Origin: Deltaproteobacteria bacterium
Lineage (GTDB): Bacteria; Myxococcota_A; Polyangia; Polyangiales; JADJMO01
Assembly: GCA_025363655.1 (NCBI GenBank)
Contig: JANYDK010000095.1
Location: 1-61,686 of the forward strand
Length of the DNA: 61,686 nt
Direction of reading: 5' to 3'
Shown here: positions 2,093 to 9,019 of the stretch, piece after piece
Layout of the letters: every line of letters begins with the position of its first letter
Numbering within the stretch: the first letter of the stretch is position 1
Program-made: the position numbers and the translations under genes
The notes under the pieces: model-generated
Database searches by the model: none
Told to the model about the DNA's origin: nothing
Seen by the model: the letters and a program-made list of their open reading frames with translations, nothing else

Positions 2093-3676
2093 TCAACGAC
2101 GACGACGACGAACGAGAATGCCGAGCGCTCCAGCCGCCGCAGCCGCCGGCCACGCGAAGATTGGGCGCTCGGTTCCAGGGATGGTGCAACCGCACCCACC
2201 CGAGCTCCCCGCGTCGTCGGTGCCGCCATCTCCAGACGTCGATCCATCGGTGCCCGGCGTGCTGCTGTCGGTGCCCGGCGTGCCCGTGTCCGTGCCCGGC
2301 GCGCCCGTATCGGTCCCCGGCGTGCCGGTGTCGGTCGTCGGACCGGTGTCGGTGCCCGGTCCGGTGTCGGTTCCTGCGTCGGTTCCACCGGGGCAGACCG
2401 TCGGCGTCTTCGCGGCGATGCGCACCACGCGACCACCATCGAGGAGCGCGACGTAGAGCGCGCCATCGGGGCCTTTGCGAATCGACACCGGCGCGTTGTC
2501 GAAGCTCGCGAAGTCGGTGCGCTTGGTCGATGCCAAACCATCGCGCGCGGCGTTGGCCGGCAGCGTCCACATCTTCTTCGCGCTGCTGTCGGCGAAGTAA
2601 TAGAGGTTCTGGAACGCCGTCGGGAACGTGCACCAATCGTCGACGACGCCGCCGGTGATCGCGGTGCAGTCGCCGTCTTCAGTCGCCGTCGCGCCCTTGT
2701 GGAGGCAGTTGTAGATGGGCTCGACGCAGTCACCCGACGGCGTCACGTCGTTGCACTTCGTCACGGGATAGCCGTGAAATCCTTCGCGCCACGGCCAGCC
2801 GTGGTGACGACCCTTCTGCACGATCGTCACCTCTTCGTAGGTGACCTCGCCGACGTCGCCGACCCAGAGCAGCCCCGTCTTCGCGTCGAAGTTGAAGCGC
2901 CACGGGTTGCGAAAGCCCCACGCCCAGATCTCGGTGCGCGGCGCGCCAGTCGTCGCCGAGATCGCGTTTCCGCAGCTCGCGCCGCACGCCGTCACTGCCG
3001 CCACCGCGGCCAGCGGGTTGTCGCTGGGGATCGTCCCGTCGAGGTTGATGCGGAGGATCTTGCCGTTGGCGTTGGTGAGGCAAGTGCCGAAGTAATTGCC
3101 GATGACGCCGCCAGGGGCGACGTTCGAGTTGCAGCCGGTGTCGCCGACGCCGATGTAGAGCTTCCCGTCAGGACCCACCGCGAGGCCACCGCCGTCGTGA
3201 TTTTGTGGGCCGCGAAGACCACGCACGAGGATTTTCTCGGTGGTCTTGTCGAGCGTGTTGTCGTCCTTGAGGACGATGGAGACGACGCGGTGACGATCGA
3301 GATCGGTGCCGCCGACCGACGCGTCGGCGGAGTAGTAGAAGAAGACCGTCTTGTTGGTGGCGAAGCTCGGATGCATCGCGACGCCGAGAAGACCTTGCTC
3401 GGAGATGGTGTTGACCGCGAAGTTGCCCGCTGTGACCACCGTGCCGTCGGTCTTGCGCACATAGACCGTGCCGCTCTTCGAGGTCGCGACCATTCGCCCG
3501 TCAGGGAGGAACGCGAAGTCGGTCGTCGCACCTAGCCCCTTGGCATAGTCGGCGAGCGTGAAGTTGGTCGCCGGTGCGCCGGTCGCCAGTGCATCGGCGT
3601 GCGCGCTCGGTGCGAACGCGAAGGCTGCAAGAGCGCCGGCGAGACCGAGGGCGGAAAAGGCGAAGGTCGTGCGCAT
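2093..3676 (-). CDS. Secreted PQQ-type glucose/sorbosone dehydrogenase-like protein with MYXO-CTERM tail
   Basis: A 527-aa protein in three parts. Residues 1-27 are a signal peptide ending AHA. Residues ~40-415 form a beta-propeller of the glucose/sorbosone dehydrogenase family, recognisable from GLLGVAMHPSFATN, NHDGGGLAVGPDGKLYIGVG, EIWAWGFRNPWRF and GPDGALYVA. Residues ~418-490 are a Thr/Asp/Gly/Pro linker made of TDTGTPG-like repeats. The last ~37 residues are the sorting tail: a Cys-Gly-Cys group, a hydrophobic stretch and five arginines. Family members oxidise sugars with PQQ; the actual substrate is unknown. In myxobacteria this tail type is processed for cell-surface display. The start at 3676 is the only one giving a full signal peptide. 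Confidence 0.88.
   Translation of the reverse strand: MRTTFAFSALGLAGALAAFAFAPSAHADALATGAPATNFTLADYAKGLGATTDFAFLPDGRMVATSKSGTVYVRKTDGTVVTAGNFAVNTISEQGLLGVAMHPSFATNKTVFFYYSADASVGGTDLDRHRVVSIVLKDDNTLDKTTEKILVRGLRGPQNHDGGGLAVGPDGKLYIGVGDTGCNSNVAPGGVIGNYFGTCLTNANGKILRINLDGTIPSDNPLAAVAAVTACGASCGNAISATTGAPRTEIWAWGFRNPWRFNFDAKTGLLWVGDVGEVTYEEVTIVQKGRHHGWPWREGFHGYPVTKCNDVTPSGDCVEPIYNCLHKGATATEDGDCTAITGGVVDDWCTFPTAFQNLYYFADSSAKKMWTLPANAARDGLASTKRTDFASFDNAPVSIRKGPDGALYVALLDGGRVVRIAAKTPTVCPGGTDAGTDTGPGTDTGPTTDTGTPGTDTGAPGTDTGTPGTDSSTPGTDGSTSGDGGTDDAGSSGGCGCTIPGTERPIFAWPAAAAAGALGILVRRRRR
2238..2400. repeat. In-frame minisatellite coding the TDTG/PGTD linker
   Basis: Imperfect tandem units around GTGCCCGGCGTGCCCGTGTC (12-24 nt periods) encode the PGTDTG linker of the sugar dehydrogenase-like gene on the minus strand. 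A similar TDTG-coding tract occurs at about 48590-48740 in another MYXO-CTERM gene. Length variation by slippage is plausible and would stay in frame. Confidence 0.7.
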
Positions 3677-3707
3677 GCGCCCAGCATGTCACGACCTTGA
3701 ACAATCG

Positions 3708-3724
3708 CCCTCTTCGAAAGAGGG
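3708..3724. other. Perfect 7-bp hairpin in the gap before the sugar dehydrogenase gene
   Basis: CCCTCTT, a 3-nt loop CGA and AAGAGGG form a perfect hairpin 32 bp upstream of the start codon of the minus-strand dehydrogenase gene. It lacks a T-run. It may be an operator-like palindrome or part of the transcription end of the small gene upstream. Confidence 0.35.
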
Positions 3725-3750
3725 GACAAAGATGCGGGTTTCAGGCCTCA

Positions 3751-3770
3751 CCCCGCAAGATTTTGCGGGG
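3751..3770 (-). terminator. Hairpin 14 nt after the 56-aa gene
   Basis: CCCCGCAA, loop GATT and TTGCGGGG make a perfect 8-bp stem with a tetraloop, placed just downstream of the stop codon of the minus-strand small gene (3785). It has no T-run, so it is a weak or Rho-assisted terminator at best; position and stability are the support. Confidence 0.45.
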
Positions 3771-3784
3771 AAGAGACCTCGATG

Positions 3785-3955
3785 TCAGGTGCCCAGCTCG
3801 ACGATGATCACGCCGCGATCGATGTCGTCCTCGACTTTCGGACGACGCATCGGTTCGGGGTGCACGAGAGGCAGCTCGAGGTGCAACGGACGCTCATGTT
3901 GGCGCCGGTCCTCTTCACGTTTTCTGATCTGCTCGATGATGAACGGAGGAAGCAT
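3785..3955 (-). CDS. 56-aa conserved-looking small protein
   Basis: The frame starts MLPPFIIEQIRKREEDRRQH, continues through a Pro/Leu-rich middle (LHLELPLVHPEP) and ends DDIDRGVIIVELGT, giving 56 residues. The ATG is preceded by a near-perfect Shine-Dalgarno, AAGGAGGT, and by a good promoter at 3980-4007. The N-terminal part is a basic/acidic amphipathic helix and the C-terminal RGVIIVEL a hydrophobic strand. I have the impression that short proteins of this layout (PPFIIE-x-IRRRE ... RGVIIIEL) occur widely in Proteobacteria and Myxococcota without a known role, but cannot check. It is probably cytosolic. It would be missed by any 60-aa length cut-off. Confidence 0.75.
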   Translation of the reverse strand: MLPPFIIEQIRKREEDRRQHERPLHLELPLVHPEPMRRPKVEDDIDRGVIIVELGT

Positions 3956-3979
3956 CTCGGACCTCCTTCCCTTGCCACG

Positions 3980-4007
3980 AATCTAGCAATGACGATACCA
4001 GGGTCAA
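3980..4007 (-). promoter_or_regulatory. Sigma-70-like promoter of the 56-aa gene
   Basis: Reading the minus strand, TTGACC (4007-4002), a 16-bp spacer and TAGATT (3985-3980) match -35 and -10 elements (5/6 and 4/6), and the -10 has an upstream TGC (extended -10). The leader would be about 20 nt and holds the strong ribosome binding site. It is one of the few consensus-like promoters in the window. Confidence 0.6.
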
Positions 4008-4110
4008 GTTGCCGACCCAAGCTCGGACTGCTTCGGCAACCGAGCGATGGGACGGCCCGTCGAGAACTTCATTGAGGCCCGGCCAATCCGTGGAATCCTT
4101 GCCCCTTCCG

Positions 4111-5466
4111 ATGCGCCGGGTTCCCCGACCGTCTCTTTTGCGTGTGAGCCGTCACATGTGGGCGTTCTCGTTCGCGTTCGGCAGCGTCATGACGTTGACG
4201 TCGACCGCGACATCGGCGCCCTTCGATCCCGACTCGACCGACTGGGAAGGTTGCTCGCGTCTCATCGAGGTGGCGCGGGAAGAGCTCGGCCCGTCGCGCG
4301 TCCTCGTGCTCGACGAGGTCGACTACGAAAAGCTCGGTCCCGCCGATGGATTGCTCCTCATTCATCCCGAGGGTTCCTACGATCTCGACGAGTTGGCCAC
4401 CTTCATGAAGCAGGGTGGGAGGCTCGCGGTCGCCGACGATTTCGGGGACGGCAATCGTCTCCTCGAGCGCTTCCGCATCGAGCGCGGGCCGGCGCCGTCC
4501 GATCCGCTGCAAATGCTCCACGGCAATCCACAGCTGCCGATCGCCATCCCTGCGTCAGGTCACCCCATCGTCGCCGATGTCGGACAAGTCGTGCTCAATC
4601 ACCCGACGACGGTGAGCCACCCCGATTTGTCGGTGCTCCTTCGCATTCCGCGCGCGGGTGGTGATCAAGGGCCCGAGGTCGCGCTCGCTGGACAGGTCGG
4701 CGAAGGGCGCCTCGTCGCCATCGGCGATCCGTCGATTTTCATCAACTCGATGATGCGCTACCCGGGCAATCGCTCGCTCGCGCGCAACCTCGCGGCGTAT
4801 CTGCTCGATGCCGGCGGTGAGCACAAACACGACGCCAAGCTGACCATCGTCCACGATCACTTCCGTGAGCGCGGCTCGCTCGGCGGCGGCGTCACCGGCT
4901 CCATTCGCGATCGTCTGCGCGGCTTCTTCTCCGCCGTCGACGGCGTTCGTCGCGAGGGCTTCGGCGGCATCGCCTCGCGGGTCGTCGCGCTCGGCATCGC
5001 GGTCGCGGCGGCGATCTGGGTCGTTCTCCGCGCCATGCTCCGCTCGAAGATCCCTCGGCCCCGCTACGCCGGTGAAGATCCGGAGGCGCTCTCGGTTGCG
5101 CGCGGGCTCGACGATCCGCGCCTCTCCTCGCTGCTCGCGCGGGGCAGTCGGCGGCTCTTTGGCGGGCGACCGAAGCCGACGACGGCGGGGCTCTCGGCGG
5201 TCCACGAGGCGCTCGATGCTGCCGTCGCCGCGCGTGAAGATCTCGCGCAGCTGCCGCGCGCACAAGGCGTGGGCAAGCTCGCCGCTGAAGCGGGACTTTC
5301 TGCACCCGAAGTGCAACAAGTCGAGAAGGCGTTCACCCGGCTTCGCAACGGCATCGGGGCCGCGGCGGTCGGTGGGCGCAGCGGAGCCTCGCTGACCAAG
5401 GGCGAGGCCACGCTCTTTGGTCGCGTGCTCGCGCCAATCGCTGATAGCCTCCGCATCGCGCGATGA
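4111..5466 (+). CDS. DUF4350-type membrane protein of a MoxR/DUF58 operon
   Basis: About 451 aa from the ATG at 4111; an ATG at 4156 is equally possible, and both leave the signal sequence MWAFSFAFGSVMTLTSTATS. Residues ~40-240 form the DUF4350 / GATase-like domain (SRVLVLDEVDYEKL, GLLLIHPEGSYDL, RLAVADDFGDGN, GRLVAIGDPSIF), followed by one transmembrane helix near residue 300 (VVALGIAVAAAIWVVLRAML) and a cytosolic C-terminal helical part. Genes of this family sit beside MoxR ATPases and DUF58 proteins and are thought to help assemble or activate membrane or secreted complexes; the client here is unknown. Its stop overlaps the moxR start (ATGA), so translation is coupled. Confidence 0.75.
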   Translation: MRRVPRPSLLRVSRHMWAFSFAFGSVMTLTSTATSAPFDPDSTDWEGCSRLIEVAREELGPSRVLVLDEVDYEKLGPADGLLLIHPEGSYDLDELATFMKQGGRLAVADDFGDGNRLLERFRIERGPAPSDPLQMLHGNPQLPIAIPASGHPIVADVGQVVLNHPTTVSHPDLSVLLRIPRAGGDQGPEVALAGQVGEGRLVAIGDPSIFINSMMRYPGNRSLARNLAAYLLDAGGEHKHDAKLTIVHDHFRERGSLGGGVTGSIRDRLRGFFSAVDGVRREGFGGIASRVVALGIAVAAAIWVVLRAMLRSKIPRPRYAGEDPEALSVARGLDDPRLSSLLARGSRRLFGGRPKPTTAGLSAVHEALDAAVAAREDLAQLPRAQGVGKLAAEAGLSAPEVQQVEKAFTRLRNGIGAAAVGGRSGASLTKGEATLFGRVLAPIADSLRIAR

Positions 5467-6482
5467 CCGCTACATCTTCTCCCGCGACCTCTCCCGCGAC
5501 CCAGGTCGAGGCCCCGCTCGCGACGTCCACGTCGGCGACCCAGCAAGAGGTCGACGCCGCCCGCGGCCCGCTCGATGCGCTCCGTGCAGCCGTCGCCCGC
5601 GTCTACCTCGGCCCGGCGCGCACCATCGATTTGCTCCTCCTCGCCTTGCTCGGCCGTGGCCATGCGCTCCTCGAAGGCGTCCCCGGCGTCGCCAAGACCA
5701 CGCTCGTGAAGGCGTTCGCCACCGCGCTCGGTTGCTCGGTGCGCCGCGTCCAATTCACGCCCGATTTGCTGCCGAGCGACATCACTGGCACCTACGTGCT
5801 TTCGCCGAAGGACGGCACCTTCAACCTTCGTCCCGGCCCCATCTTCGCCAACGTCGTCCTCGCCGACGAGATCAACCGCGCGCCGGCGAAGACGCAGGCC
5901 GCGCTCCTCGAAGCGATGCAAGAGAAGCAGGTCACCATCGAGGGCGATCGCTTCGAGCTGCCGCCGCCCTTCATCGTCCTCGCGACGCAGAACCCGATCG
6001 ATCTCGAAGGCACCTATCCGCTCCCCGAAGCGCAAATCGACCGATTTTTGCTGCACGTCGCGATGGGCTACCCCTCGGCGCGCGAAGAGGTCGAGATGCT
6101 GAAGACGCACGGCAGCCAGGCGCCACACGTCGCCGCGCAGCTCGATCCGGCTCGGGTGGCGGCGCTGCAGGCGCTCACTCCGCGCATCCACGTCGAGGAC
6201 GACATTCTCGATTACATCGTGGCGATGTGCACCTTCACCCGCAAGCATCCGCGCGTGGTGCTCGGCGCGTCACCGCGTGCGTCGCTCGCGCTCGCCACCT
6301 CGGCGCGCGGCATCGCGCTCCTCAAAGGCCGCACCTTCGTCACGCCCGACGACGTGCGAGACGTCGCGGTGCCGACGCTGTCACACCGTCTCATTCTCGT
6401 CCCCGAGCTCGAAGGCGACGCCAAGGCGCGCGCCGGCGTGGTCGAAGAGGGCATCGCGCGCGTCCCCTATCGACGTGGATGA
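5463..6482 (+). CDS. MoxR-family AAA+ ATPase
   Basis: A 339-aa AAA+ ATPase. Walker A is GVPGVAKTT at residues 72-80, Walker B VVLADEINRAPAKTQAALLE follows, sensor 1 lies in FIVLATQNPIDLEGTYPLPE, and the C-terminal lid contains ASPRASLALATSARG. These are the family hallmarks of MoxR, an ATP-driven chaperone that works with VWA-domain partners. The N-terminal 30 residues are Thr/Ser/Pro-rich and poorly conserved. It lies between DUF4350 (4-bp overlap) and DUF58 (12-bp gap), the standard gene order, so the three proteins very likely act together at the membrane. Confidence 0.92.
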   Translation: MTATSSPATSPATQVEAPLATSTSATQQEVDAARGPLDALRAAVARVYLGPARTIDLLLLALLGRGHALLEGVPGVAKTTLVKAFATALGCSVRRVQFTPDLLPSDITGTYVLSPKDGTFNLRPGPIFANVVLADEINRAPAKTQAALLEAMQEKQVTIEGDRFELPPPFIVLATQNPIDLEGTYPLPEAQIDRFLLHVAMGYPSAREEVEMLKTHGSQAPHVAAQLDPARVAALQALTPRIHVEDDILDYIVAMCTFTRKHPRVVLGASPRASLALATSARGIALLKGRTFVTPDDVRDVAVPTLSHRLILVPELEGDAKARAGVVEEGIARVPYRRG

Positions 6483-6494
6483 AAGGACGGGGCG

Positions 6495-8144
6495 GTGCAC
6501 ACGAACCCCCGCCCCTCGACGATCGCGACCGCGATCACCGGCGTCGCGCTGGTGCTGCTGGCGATCGCGACGCGCCGGCCGGAGGCAGCCCTCGCCGGTG
6601 GAGCGCTCCTCGCCGCGGTCGCTTGGGGTCGAGCCTCGACGCGCGGTGACATCGCGCGCGCTCGTCGAGCCGGCTTCGAGATGGTGTGGCGTGAGCAGAG
6701 TCGCCGTGCGCGTTTGGCCGTCGGTCAATCGCGCGTCTTCGTCGCCGAGCTGAGAAACAGGAGCGATCGCGTCGTCCACGTCGACAGCCTGCGCGCCGTC
6801 GCCAGCGAAGGACTGCGCGCCGAGGTGCGACCGCACGAGCTCGACGTGCTTCCGGGCGGCTTCGCGCGCATCGAGGTCGAGGTCACCGGTCGTCGCGTCG
6901 GACGGCGTGGCGTGCATGGGCTCGCGCTCGGAGCCGGCGGCGTCGGCGCTGCCTTCGAAGTGCCGCTCACCTTCGCCAACGTGCTCGGCGTCGAGGTGGT
7001 GCCGCGCGCGGTGGCCAGCGGGCTGCAGTTGCCGCGCGGTGGCCGTCTCCGCGCCGATCCCGCGCCCGGTCGTTCGCGCAGTCGCAAGGGCGACGGCACC
7101 GAGCTTCGTGAAATTCGCGACATCGTCCCTGGCGATTCCTTCCGAAAAATCGCCTGGAAAGCCTCGGCGCGTCGCGGGCGCCTGCTCGTGCGCGAGATGG
7201 AGGTCGAGGAGCGTGACGTGGTCTGGCTCGTCGTCGACGTCGCCGCCGAAGGGTGGGCGGGCCCGATCGGCGAGTCTCCGCTCGATCGCGCGGTCGACAC
7301 TGCGTCTGCTTATGCCATCGAGCGCGCGCGTCATGGTGCGGCGGTCGGCGTCGCGCTCGTCACCGATCACATCGTCGCGTGGAGCCCTCCGGCGCGAGGC
7401 GGTGCCGATCTCGATCGCCTCGGCGCGATCTGGCTCGACGCCATCGATCCTTACGGCGCCGATCGTTGCGGCATGGCCATCGACGAGCTCTTGCGGCTCG
7501 CCATCGAGCACGCGCGTCCGCTCGATCCGGCGGGCCTCGCCGATCTTCCCAAGGGCGACGTCGATCGCCTGCTTTCGCGGCTCGAAGGGCTCCGTGTGCG
7601 CGCGCCGTTCCAAGGTCCGGCTCCGCGTCCGGCGGCGGTCAACGAAGCGCGCGATCGGCTCGTTCGTCATTATGTAGCGAGCTTCGGGCTCGACGTGCCG
7701 GCGCGTGGCTCGGGCGCGATGGTCACCGCAGGCATCGCCGACGCGCTTCGTCGCATCCATCGCGCGCGTCCTCGCGCCACCGACGTGGTGGTGATCGCGC
7801 CGGCGCCGCCGGTGGCCGGTGACGAGCTGCGCGACGCCGTCACTCGCGTGCGCAAGCGTGGCGTGAAGGTTCGTTGGGCTACCGTCGATCCGACGCATGG
7901 TCTCGATGCGCCCGAAGGTGGTGAGCTCGTCACCCGCGCCATCGAGGTCGAGCGCGCCATCGCCATGAAAGAAGCGACCACCCAGCTCACTGCCATCGGC
8001 GTGCGGCTCGTCGAGGCGCGCAGCCTGGTGAAGAAGCATCCGGCGCACCGCTACGAAGACGTGCACGAGCGCCTCGCCGGTGAAGGGCCGAACGCTCCGC
8101 CCGGGCCGCCTGCGCCCACTCCCCACGAGGGCGACGGCCGGTGA
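6495..8144 (+). CDS. DUF58 (VWA-like) membrane protein
   Basis: A 549-aa protein starting at a GTG with a purine-rich ribosome site (AAAGGACGGGG). Two hydrophobic segments in residues ~10-45 anchor it. The central DUF58 core is shown by GTELREIRDIVPGDSFRKIA followed by WKASARRGRLLVREMEVEE, and a VWA-type fold with VVWLVVDVAAEG and a DRAVDTASAYAIERARHGAA helix follows. DUF58 proteins pair with MoxR ATPases. At 549 aa it is longer than usual (300-450), with a C-terminal VWA-like half (VVVIAPAPPVAGDELRDAVT). Its last codons overlap the rsmA start (GTGA). Confidence 0.85.
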   Translation: MHTNPRPSTIATAITGVALVLLAIATRRPEAALAGGALLAAVAWGRASTRGDIARARRAGFEMVWREQSRRARLAVGQSRVFVAELRNRSDRVVHVDSLRAVASEGLRAEVRPHELDVLPGGFARIEVEVTGRRVGRRGVHGLALGAGGVGAAFEVPLTFANVLGVEVVPRAVASGLQLPRGGRLRADPAPGRSRSRKGDGTELREIRDIVPGDSFRKIAWKASARRGRLLVREMEVEERDVVWLVVDVAAEGWAGPIGESPLDRAVDTASAYAIERARHGAAVGVALVTDHIVAWSPPARGGADLDRLGAIWLDAIDPYGADRCGMAIDELLRLAIEHARPLDPAGLADLPKGDVDRLLSRLEGLRVRAPFQGPAPRPAAVNEARDRLVRHYVASFGLDVPARGSGAMVTAGIADALRRIHRARPRATDVVVIAPAPPVAGDELRDAVTRVRKRGVKVRWATVDPTHGLDAPEGGELVTRAIEVERAIAMKEATTQLTAIGVRLVEARSLVKKHPAHRYEDVHERLAGEGPNAPPGPPAPTPHEGDGR

Positions 8145-9019
8145 GCGACGAAACGCCGACGGCCGAAGGGTTCGTCGATCCCCGCGTCCTCCTCCGCCGC
8201 TACGAGCTGCGCCCCAAGCGCTCGTTCGGGCAGAATTTTCTCGTCTCCGAGCGGGTGGTGCAAAAGATAGCGGAGTTATGCACCGCCGATTCGCCGCAGG
8301 TCGTCGTCGAAATCGGGGCCGGTCTCGGCACGCTCACCTCGGCGCTGCTCGCCCGCGCGCCACGCGTCGTCGCCATCGAGCGCGACCGCGATCTCCTGCC
8401 GGTGCTCGAGAAAGAGTTCGAAGGCGCGATCACCCGCGGCGGTCTTCGGCTGGTCGAGGCCGACGCCGCGCAGGTCGATTTTCGAGAGCTCTTCGGGGAC
8501 GCCGAGCGCGTCGTCCTCGCGGGCAACCTTCCGTATCAAATCACCGGACGTCTCATCGAGCGCGCCACCGAGCTCGGCACGCGCGTGCAAAGGCTGGTGG
8601 TGATGGTGCAACGGGAGGTCGCCGATCGTCTGATCGCGCCGCCCGACGGCGACTCTTACGGACAGCTCTCGATCTTCGCGCAGGCTGGTTTCACGGTGAA
8701 ACGTGAGCTCCTCGTCTCGGCCGGATGTTTTCATCCGCGGCCCGAGGTGGAGAGCGCGGTGGTGTCGTTCACTCCGCTGGCGACGCCGCGCGCCGAAGAG
8801 ACGCCGACCTTTCGCCGCGTCGTCCACGCTGCCTTCGCGGCCCGTCGCAAGACGCTGCGCAACGCGTTGGCTGCCCTCCTCGGGGAGCCTGGCGCGAAGG
8901 ACGCCGTCGCCACCACGGGCATCGATTTGCAACGCCGCGGCGAGACTTTGAGCGTCGAAGAGCTCGCCGCCATCGCCCGCGCGCTCGATGTCGCGCGCAC
9001 CGGCGAAGCGAACACGTAG
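8141..9019 (+). CDS. rsmA: Ribosomal RNA small subunit methyltransferase A
   Basis: A 292-aa enzyme that dimethylates two adjacent adenines in the 3' terminal helix of 16S rRNA (A1518/A1519 in E. coli numbering). Seen are the N-terminal PKRSFGQNFLVSE, SAM motif I VVEIGAGLGTLTSALL, the acidic VAIERDRDLLPVLE, and the catalytic NLPY in LAGNLPYQITGRLI. The C-terminal domain is present (FHPRPEVESAVVSF, FAARRKTLRNAL). The length is normal. Translation starts at a GTG overlapping the DUF58 stop, so this housekeeping gene rides on the MoxR operon. Confidence 0.95.
   Translation: MSDETPTAEGFVDPRVLLRRYELRPKRSFGQNFLVSERVVQKIAELCTADSPQVVVEIGAGLGTLTSALLARAPRVVAIERDRDLLPVLEKEFEGAITRGGLRLVEADAAQVDFRELFGDAERVVLAGNLPYQITGRLIERATELGTRVQRLVVMVQREVADRLIAPPDGDSYGQLSIFAQAGFTVKRELLVSAGCFHPRPEVESAVVSFTPLATPRAEETPTFRRVVHAAFAARRKTLRNALAALLGEPGAKDAVATTGIDLQRRGETLSVEELAAIARALDVARTGEANT

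Follow-up and report, generated by a model that had tools for sequence, protein, structure and literature searches.

Does a frame of only 56 codons, short enough to fall under the usual length cut-offs, encode a protein, and what could such a protein do? The frame lies on the minus strand of the 61.7-kb stretch of DNA analysed here (the window), and runs from an ATG at 3955 to a TGA at 3787..3785 (CDS 3785..3955; product MLPPFIIEQIRKREEDRRQHERPLHLELPLVHPEPMRRPKVEDDIDRGVIIVELGT). A Shine-Dalgarno sequence, AAGGAGGT, is located at 3968..3961, 5 nt 5' of the ATG, and by raw count 106 of 118 family loci have a Shine-Dalgarno core of 4 nt or more. Among 13 hand-picked pairs, 12 are informative (L024 and L025 are identical) and give dN/dS values of 0.07-0.40 with an excess of changes at the third codon position in each, indicating that selection on the family is purifying. 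All 117 homologous spans tested keep the frame open; the other frames that are ever open are so in 88, 42, 34 and 30 of these, an openness that high GC explains in part. A preliminary description of this DNA had proposed the 56-aa gene and its ribosome site, and had named a frame without conservation or synonymous bias as the result that would speak against it. Both proposals are borne out, with the frame kept in 53 of 56 relatives and dN/dS as given above.

The 53 relatives with a homologue include all 47 of the good-quality genomes. A profile of 39 diverse members matches 250 of the 377 Myxococcota genomes searched, covering 159 of 234 genera and, among good-quality genomes, 177 of 235. By hand count it reaches 66 of the 69 genomes from the same order and 28 of the 33 from the same class; a narrower profile matches 218 of the 377. 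For the 127 phylum genomes without a match to the 39-member profile, the function is either not indispensable in every lineage or the protein has diverged there. In its own genome the gene is single-copy, the next-best match having an E-value of 0.197 compared to 1.7e-18, and two matches are listed in 26 of the 250 genomes. Seven second copies (L160-L166) keep the end motifs described below, one of them (L164) ending in RGPVEIQIW; no common neighbourhood was seen for these seven, and ORF calling is unreliable at such high GC. A contig scan confirmed 96 loci; among the best 80 of these, the titles name Myxococcota, Deltaproteobacteria or plainly uncultured organisms. No match came from four plasmid records of other phyla, a small sample that shows little, or from plasmid and phage collections searched with the window protein. 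The protein thus belongs to an unnamed small-protein family, found in almost every genome of the order and widely across Myxococcota.

The expression signals are equally well defined. On the minus strand a -35 hexamer TTGACC (4007..4002) is separated by 16 nt from the -10 hexamer TAGATT (3985..3980), which together with a preceding TGC forms an extended -10 element (3988..3980). Compared to sigma-70 extended -10 promoters, i.e. a TTGACA-like -35, a spacer of 16-18 nt and a TGn-TATAAT-like -10, the site matches 9 of 12 positions plus the TG at a spacer of 16. It is the only site of 9/12 with TG extension on either strand of the window, where a first-order Markov null yields a mean of 0.15 (20 runs), and the small gene is the only place in the window where a promoter, a Shine-Dalgarno sequence of at least 6 nt and an ORF are combined. 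The preliminary description was therefore right in reading TTGACC-N16-TAGATT with an extended -10 at 4007..3980, and its remark that few genes of the window are so canonical holds in the strict sense that no other extended -10 site in the 61.7 kb is of this quality.

Conservation of the promoter was scored as at least 8 of 12 positions, a 16-nt spacer and a distance of at most 260 nt from the start. A site with a spacer of exactly 16 is found in 59 of 78 order loci, while shuffled sequences give a mean of 1.3 and a maximum of 4; the 78 loci omit L107, L108 and L112, which lie outside the order, and this count supersedes a cruder scoring in which 55 of 81 loci were above the 95% level of letter-shuffled sequence. 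The other 19 of the 78 have no site with a 16-nt spacer. Spacers of 14, 15 and 17-20 occur in 1-5 order loci each and a spacer of 13 in 17, an excess that probably comes from reading the same T/A-rich site in a shifted register. The spacer letters vary among the order loci, except for TTGC or TTAT ahead of the -10. The ATG follows at 19-107 nt in most of them, and at a greater distance in L074 and L091. This variation argues that the promoter is kept for itself and is not a by-product of sequence similarity. Judged by its elements, the conserved promoter is of the housekeeping (extended -10) type, so that transcription is most likely constitutive. That 59 of 78 order loci keep it, versus 1.3 after shuffling, supports the prediction of steady expression, which is likely also to be strong.

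Taken together, it is near certain that 3785..3955 is a true protein-coding gene and that the family is real. The shortness of the frame would suit a chance ORF carrying chance signals, a reading to which we assign practically no weight: homologues in 53 of 56 relatives and 250 of 377 phylum genomes, the codon-position bias, the sole promoter site of its kind and the conservation of this promoter all stand against it, and conservation and codon-position bias by themselves refute it. An Rfam scan of 3500..4300 returned one match, far below its cut-off and thus a chance match.

3' of the stop codon, a hairpin of 8 pairs, CCCCGCAAAATCTTGCGGGG (CCCCGCAA-AATC-TTGCGGGG), is located at 3770..3751 on the minus strand. 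The surrounding 71 nt fold with -31.1 kcal/mol (z -3.67), and none of 200 shuffles is equally stable. The stem-loop previously proposed past the stop is therefore present and folds stably, while the terminator role ascribed to it is not supported. An intrinsic (Rho-independent) terminator combines a GC-rich hairpin with an immediate T-run; here the T-run is missing, and both a terminator scan and a stem-plus-T test miss the hairpin, which is thus no textbook intrinsic terminator. Across the family 12 of 117 loci pass the stem-plus-T test, with 1.2 expected from shuffles. Between the small gene and the downstream GSDH gene there is a second hairpin, CCCTCTT-TCG-AAGAGGG (3724..3708, minus strand), with CGATTGTT after it, which may be a terminator or else a leader of the GSDH gene.

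What kind of protein is encoded? Members comprise 52-68 residues, except for L054, whose frame extends to 150. Three motifs are common to them: MLxxFIIEQIRRRE opens the sequence, LELP (LELPLP) lies in the middle and RGVIIIDL at the end, with a charged, variable linker separating the last two. In the window protein these correspond to MLPPFIIEQIRKREED (codons 1-18, 3902..3955) and, according to the family alignment, to ELPL (codons 27-30, 3866..3877) and RGVIIVEL (codons 47-54, 3794..3817), all on the minus strand. Met1, Leu2, Ile6, Ile7 and Ile10 are nearly invariant: in a tally of 114 sequences, from which four divergent ones had been omitted beforehand, Leu2 and Ile10 are found in all and Ile6 and Ile7 in 113. 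As Leu2 follows the start codon in every tallied sequence, the start is fixed. In the 94 of 118 sequences in which both patterns were found, the distance from the start to LELP is nearly constant (25.1 +/- 1.5 residues), and the linker from LELP to GVVII measures 20.1 +/- 2.8 residues (range 15-33). The V/I-rich C-terminal segment is present in 107 of 118 sequences, the remaining 11 not fitting the pattern; 34 of the 107 end exactly at the motif, and most others extend by 1-8 residues. AlphaFold2 predicts a single helix (residues 4-21) for the window protein, with a pLDDT of 76.7, a low pTM of 0.29, and the C-terminal block at 76 without assigned structure. A second member, which we take to be Myxococcia-like (the class label is a guess), gives the same picture (pLDDT 74.4, pTM 0.30).

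With basic residues behind its invariant, hydrophobic MLxxFIIxxI start, the N-terminal helix could lie in the membrane surface, as in a peripheral membrane peptide of the SpoVM type. Against this, residues 2-13 of five members have only modest hydrophobic moments (0.28-0.43 at 100 degrees). The mostly acidic residues 8 and 14 and the negative net charge, -1 to -4 in the five, are unusual for membrane-binding helices, and we consider such a role improbable. A hydrophobic stretch of transmembrane length is absent from the sequence.

Family libraries do not name the protein. The window protein matches no family in Pfam or NCBIfam, and searches with 19 members against PHROGs and Pfam and with 39 against NCBIfam and Pfam gave only single-member matches with E-values of 0.06 or worse. 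The best match among PDB sequences (E 0.81) is a helical chance match. Judged by titles and the beginnings of abstracts, none of the papers listed in literature searches treats the small protein; the portion of PMC11444678 consulted lists a lytic transglycosylase and not the small protein. The family is therefore new, yet of a known kind, that of conserved small proteins.

As a pointer to function, the neighbouring genes are of use within the order only. Divergent from the small gene, on the plus strand, family search and synteny place a DUF4350 protein (PF14258; 4156..5466, predicted start), a MoxR AAA ATPase (AAA_3; 5463..6482) and a DUF58 protein (6495..8144) as first to third genes of an operon, followed by a KsgA/RsmA-type rRNA adenine dimethylase (RrnaAD; 8141..9019). 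In 73 of 80 order-centred loci the small gene is located beside DUF4350-MoxR-DUF58-KsgA or directly beside KsgA. Of these 80 loci, drawn from the species collection, DUF4350 is the divergent neighbour in 51 and KsgA directly so in 19; in 3 the small gene precedes DUF4350 with the same orientation, and 7 have neither. MoxR is present in 53 of the 54 DUF4350-adjacent loci. This arrangement would be expected for a subunit or regulator of the MoxR-DUF58-DUF4350 module and/or KsgA, co-regulated through the shared intergenic region and influencing either ribosome maturation or the MoxR ATPase. However, the 19 KsgA-adjacent loci have no adjacent DUF4350, and neither MoxR nor DUF58 was found in them. 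In a further 37 loci, which belong to different orders and classes, we found none of the seven genes that neighbour it in the window, KsgA and the operon included, and the protein is still conserved. With these 19 and 37 exceptions the operon and KsgA are not obligate neighbours, and inherited gene order explains the remainder, so that a dedicated role in the module appears unlikely. The link is probably one of inherited gene order, not of function; being confined to the order it cannot explain the family, and may still matter inside the order. Since none of the 37 outside loci shares the window neighbours, gene context names no partner.

The 19 KsgA-adjacent loci (L036, L038 and 17 others) represent a sublineage without DUF4350-MoxR-DUF58 in between, in which KsgA and the small gene are arranged head to head; most of them carry the promoter TTGTCA-16-TATATT. 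On the other side of the small gene, the gene for the GSDH-domain protein (2093..3676, minus strand) is adjacent in only 2 of 80 relatives' loci and hence falls outside the conserved set. At its C-terminus this protein has repeats rich in Asp, Thr and Gly together with a Cys-Gly-Cys segment, a hydrophobic stretch and a tail of Arg residues, presumably resembling a myxobacterial C-terminal sorting signal.

Outside the order, the neighbour labels AgmX, Rossmann-type, FtsH, TilS and FHA are our own readings of the sequences and are to be taken as assumptions. In L139, L143, L144, L145, L147 and L149 a gene 59-129 nt upstream of the small gene, with the same orientation, codes for a presumed Rossmann-type protein, and the two possibly form one operon. 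A presumed AgmX-like ORF is adjacent in L112/L130 (one and the same contig stretch), L125, L127, L128 and L129. Both clusters look like local inheritance. A toxin-antitoxin pair is not indicated, as, among ORFs of at least 80 aa, none recurs as a neighbour in order and outside loci alike, and the neighbour clusters compared likewise contain no constant neighbour that could be the maturation enzyme of a RiPP precursor. For a leader peptide or uORF a downstream gene in the same direction would have to recur; GSDH is downstream in 2 of 80 loci and DUF4350, in the same direction, in 3 of 80.

A relative of the protein is also encoded on one contig of a viral collection (IMGVR_UViG_3300047440_000580; 73,655 bases), at L168:10001-10162. 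This 53-aa copy, MLDAFIIDEIRRREE...DRGVTIIDM, has both motifs and a short linker, and shares 41-53% identity with the six cellular members in the alignment. Its gene is located directly behind a 118-aa ORF and ahead of a 58-aa ORF and a HAD_SAK_2 gene. We take the contig as a phage fragment; besides the HAD_SAK_2 protein it encodes a phage-family helicase (E 1.1e-93), an RtcB ligase (6.7e-139) and a KaiC-type ATPase, and phrog_2, one common phage family, was not found on it.

Based on these features our best reading, offered tentatively, is that of a constitutive, soluble, largely disordered adaptor that docks with both ends. The two-ended docking is inferred entirely from the anatomy, namely the motifs, their spacing and the predicted helix. 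The N-terminal helix, with its invariant Met-Leu start and the hydrophobic residues Phe5, Ile6, Ile7 and Ile10, would bind one partner surface, and the V/I-rich RGVIIIDL segment, acting as an added β-strand, would bind either another surface of it or another partner, while the acidic/basic, Pro-rich linker would only set the reach between the ends. Strand addition is a guess from composition, as AlphaFold2 assigns no β-strand to the C-terminus. The phage copy fits a docking role in that it retains both ends with a shortened linker between them, and for the same reason we propose that the partner should be a conserved Myxococcota machine. A wider version, in which a phylum-wide constitutive adaptor plugs into a core Myxococcota machine by helix and strand and phages copy it to reach the same machine, is more speculative and on balance doubtful.

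Two further explanations start from the same features. A regulator directed at a protease or polymerase (for example a degradation adaptor or inhibitor) and borrowed by phages would be a special case of docking. The phage-borne copy, the two-ended architecture and the short exposed hydrophobic C-terminal tail, which in 34 of 107 members ends at the motif, are consistent with it; the protein matches no described family, and the extension of the tail by 1-8 residues in most other members makes a strict C-terminal degron unlikely. We do not expect this special case to apply. Alternatively, the V/I-rich segment of 107 of the 118 sequences and the charged, R/E-rich helix might drive homo-oligomers, i.e. 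a self-assembling scaffold or filament peptide. The segment is, however, a single short stretch, we know of no assembly motif resembling it, and monomer predictions cannot reveal oligomers; self-assembly seems to us quite improbable.

The proposed docking adaptor can be readily tested, as it involves one small gene, usually single-copy, in culturable hosts such as Sorangium cellulosum, which carries L057-L059 and L064. Its retention in most of the phylum, the rigidly conserved promoter and the phage copy point to a shared core process that the libraries have missed. If the partner were indeed a core machine that phages also target, this would be more than a new small-protein family, namely a nameless hub. 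The genomes of Myxococcota are large, their behaviour is complex and they make many secondary metabolites, and to our knowledge their small proteins are hardly charted; probably many soil bacteria share this unstudied one.

Several known systems invite comparison. Pup, like the predicted product, is a disordered, charged and partly helical protein of about 60 aa; it has a C-terminal Gly-Gly-Glu/Gln. Among the 118 sequences of our family none has a C-terminal GGE or GGQ; their ends are V/I-rich with variable extra residues. Amphipathic membrane peptides of the SpoVM type possess a hydrophobic N-terminal helix from Met1, which the family has in common with them, whereas it differs by its acidic helix residues, long charged tail and conserved C-terminal motif. 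Two-ended peptide regulators of the MciZ type have about 40-60 aa and a helix and a strand, and bind their partner by strand addition. The family, from a different phylum, is similar in size and in the proposed helix and strand, a likeness drawn from general description. With other conserved bacterial small proteins that lack a family model it shares a short ORF, its own promoter and ribosome site, purifying selection and its absence from the libraries, and it differs from these by its phylum-wide spread, its strictly spaced conserved promoter and its phage-borne copy.
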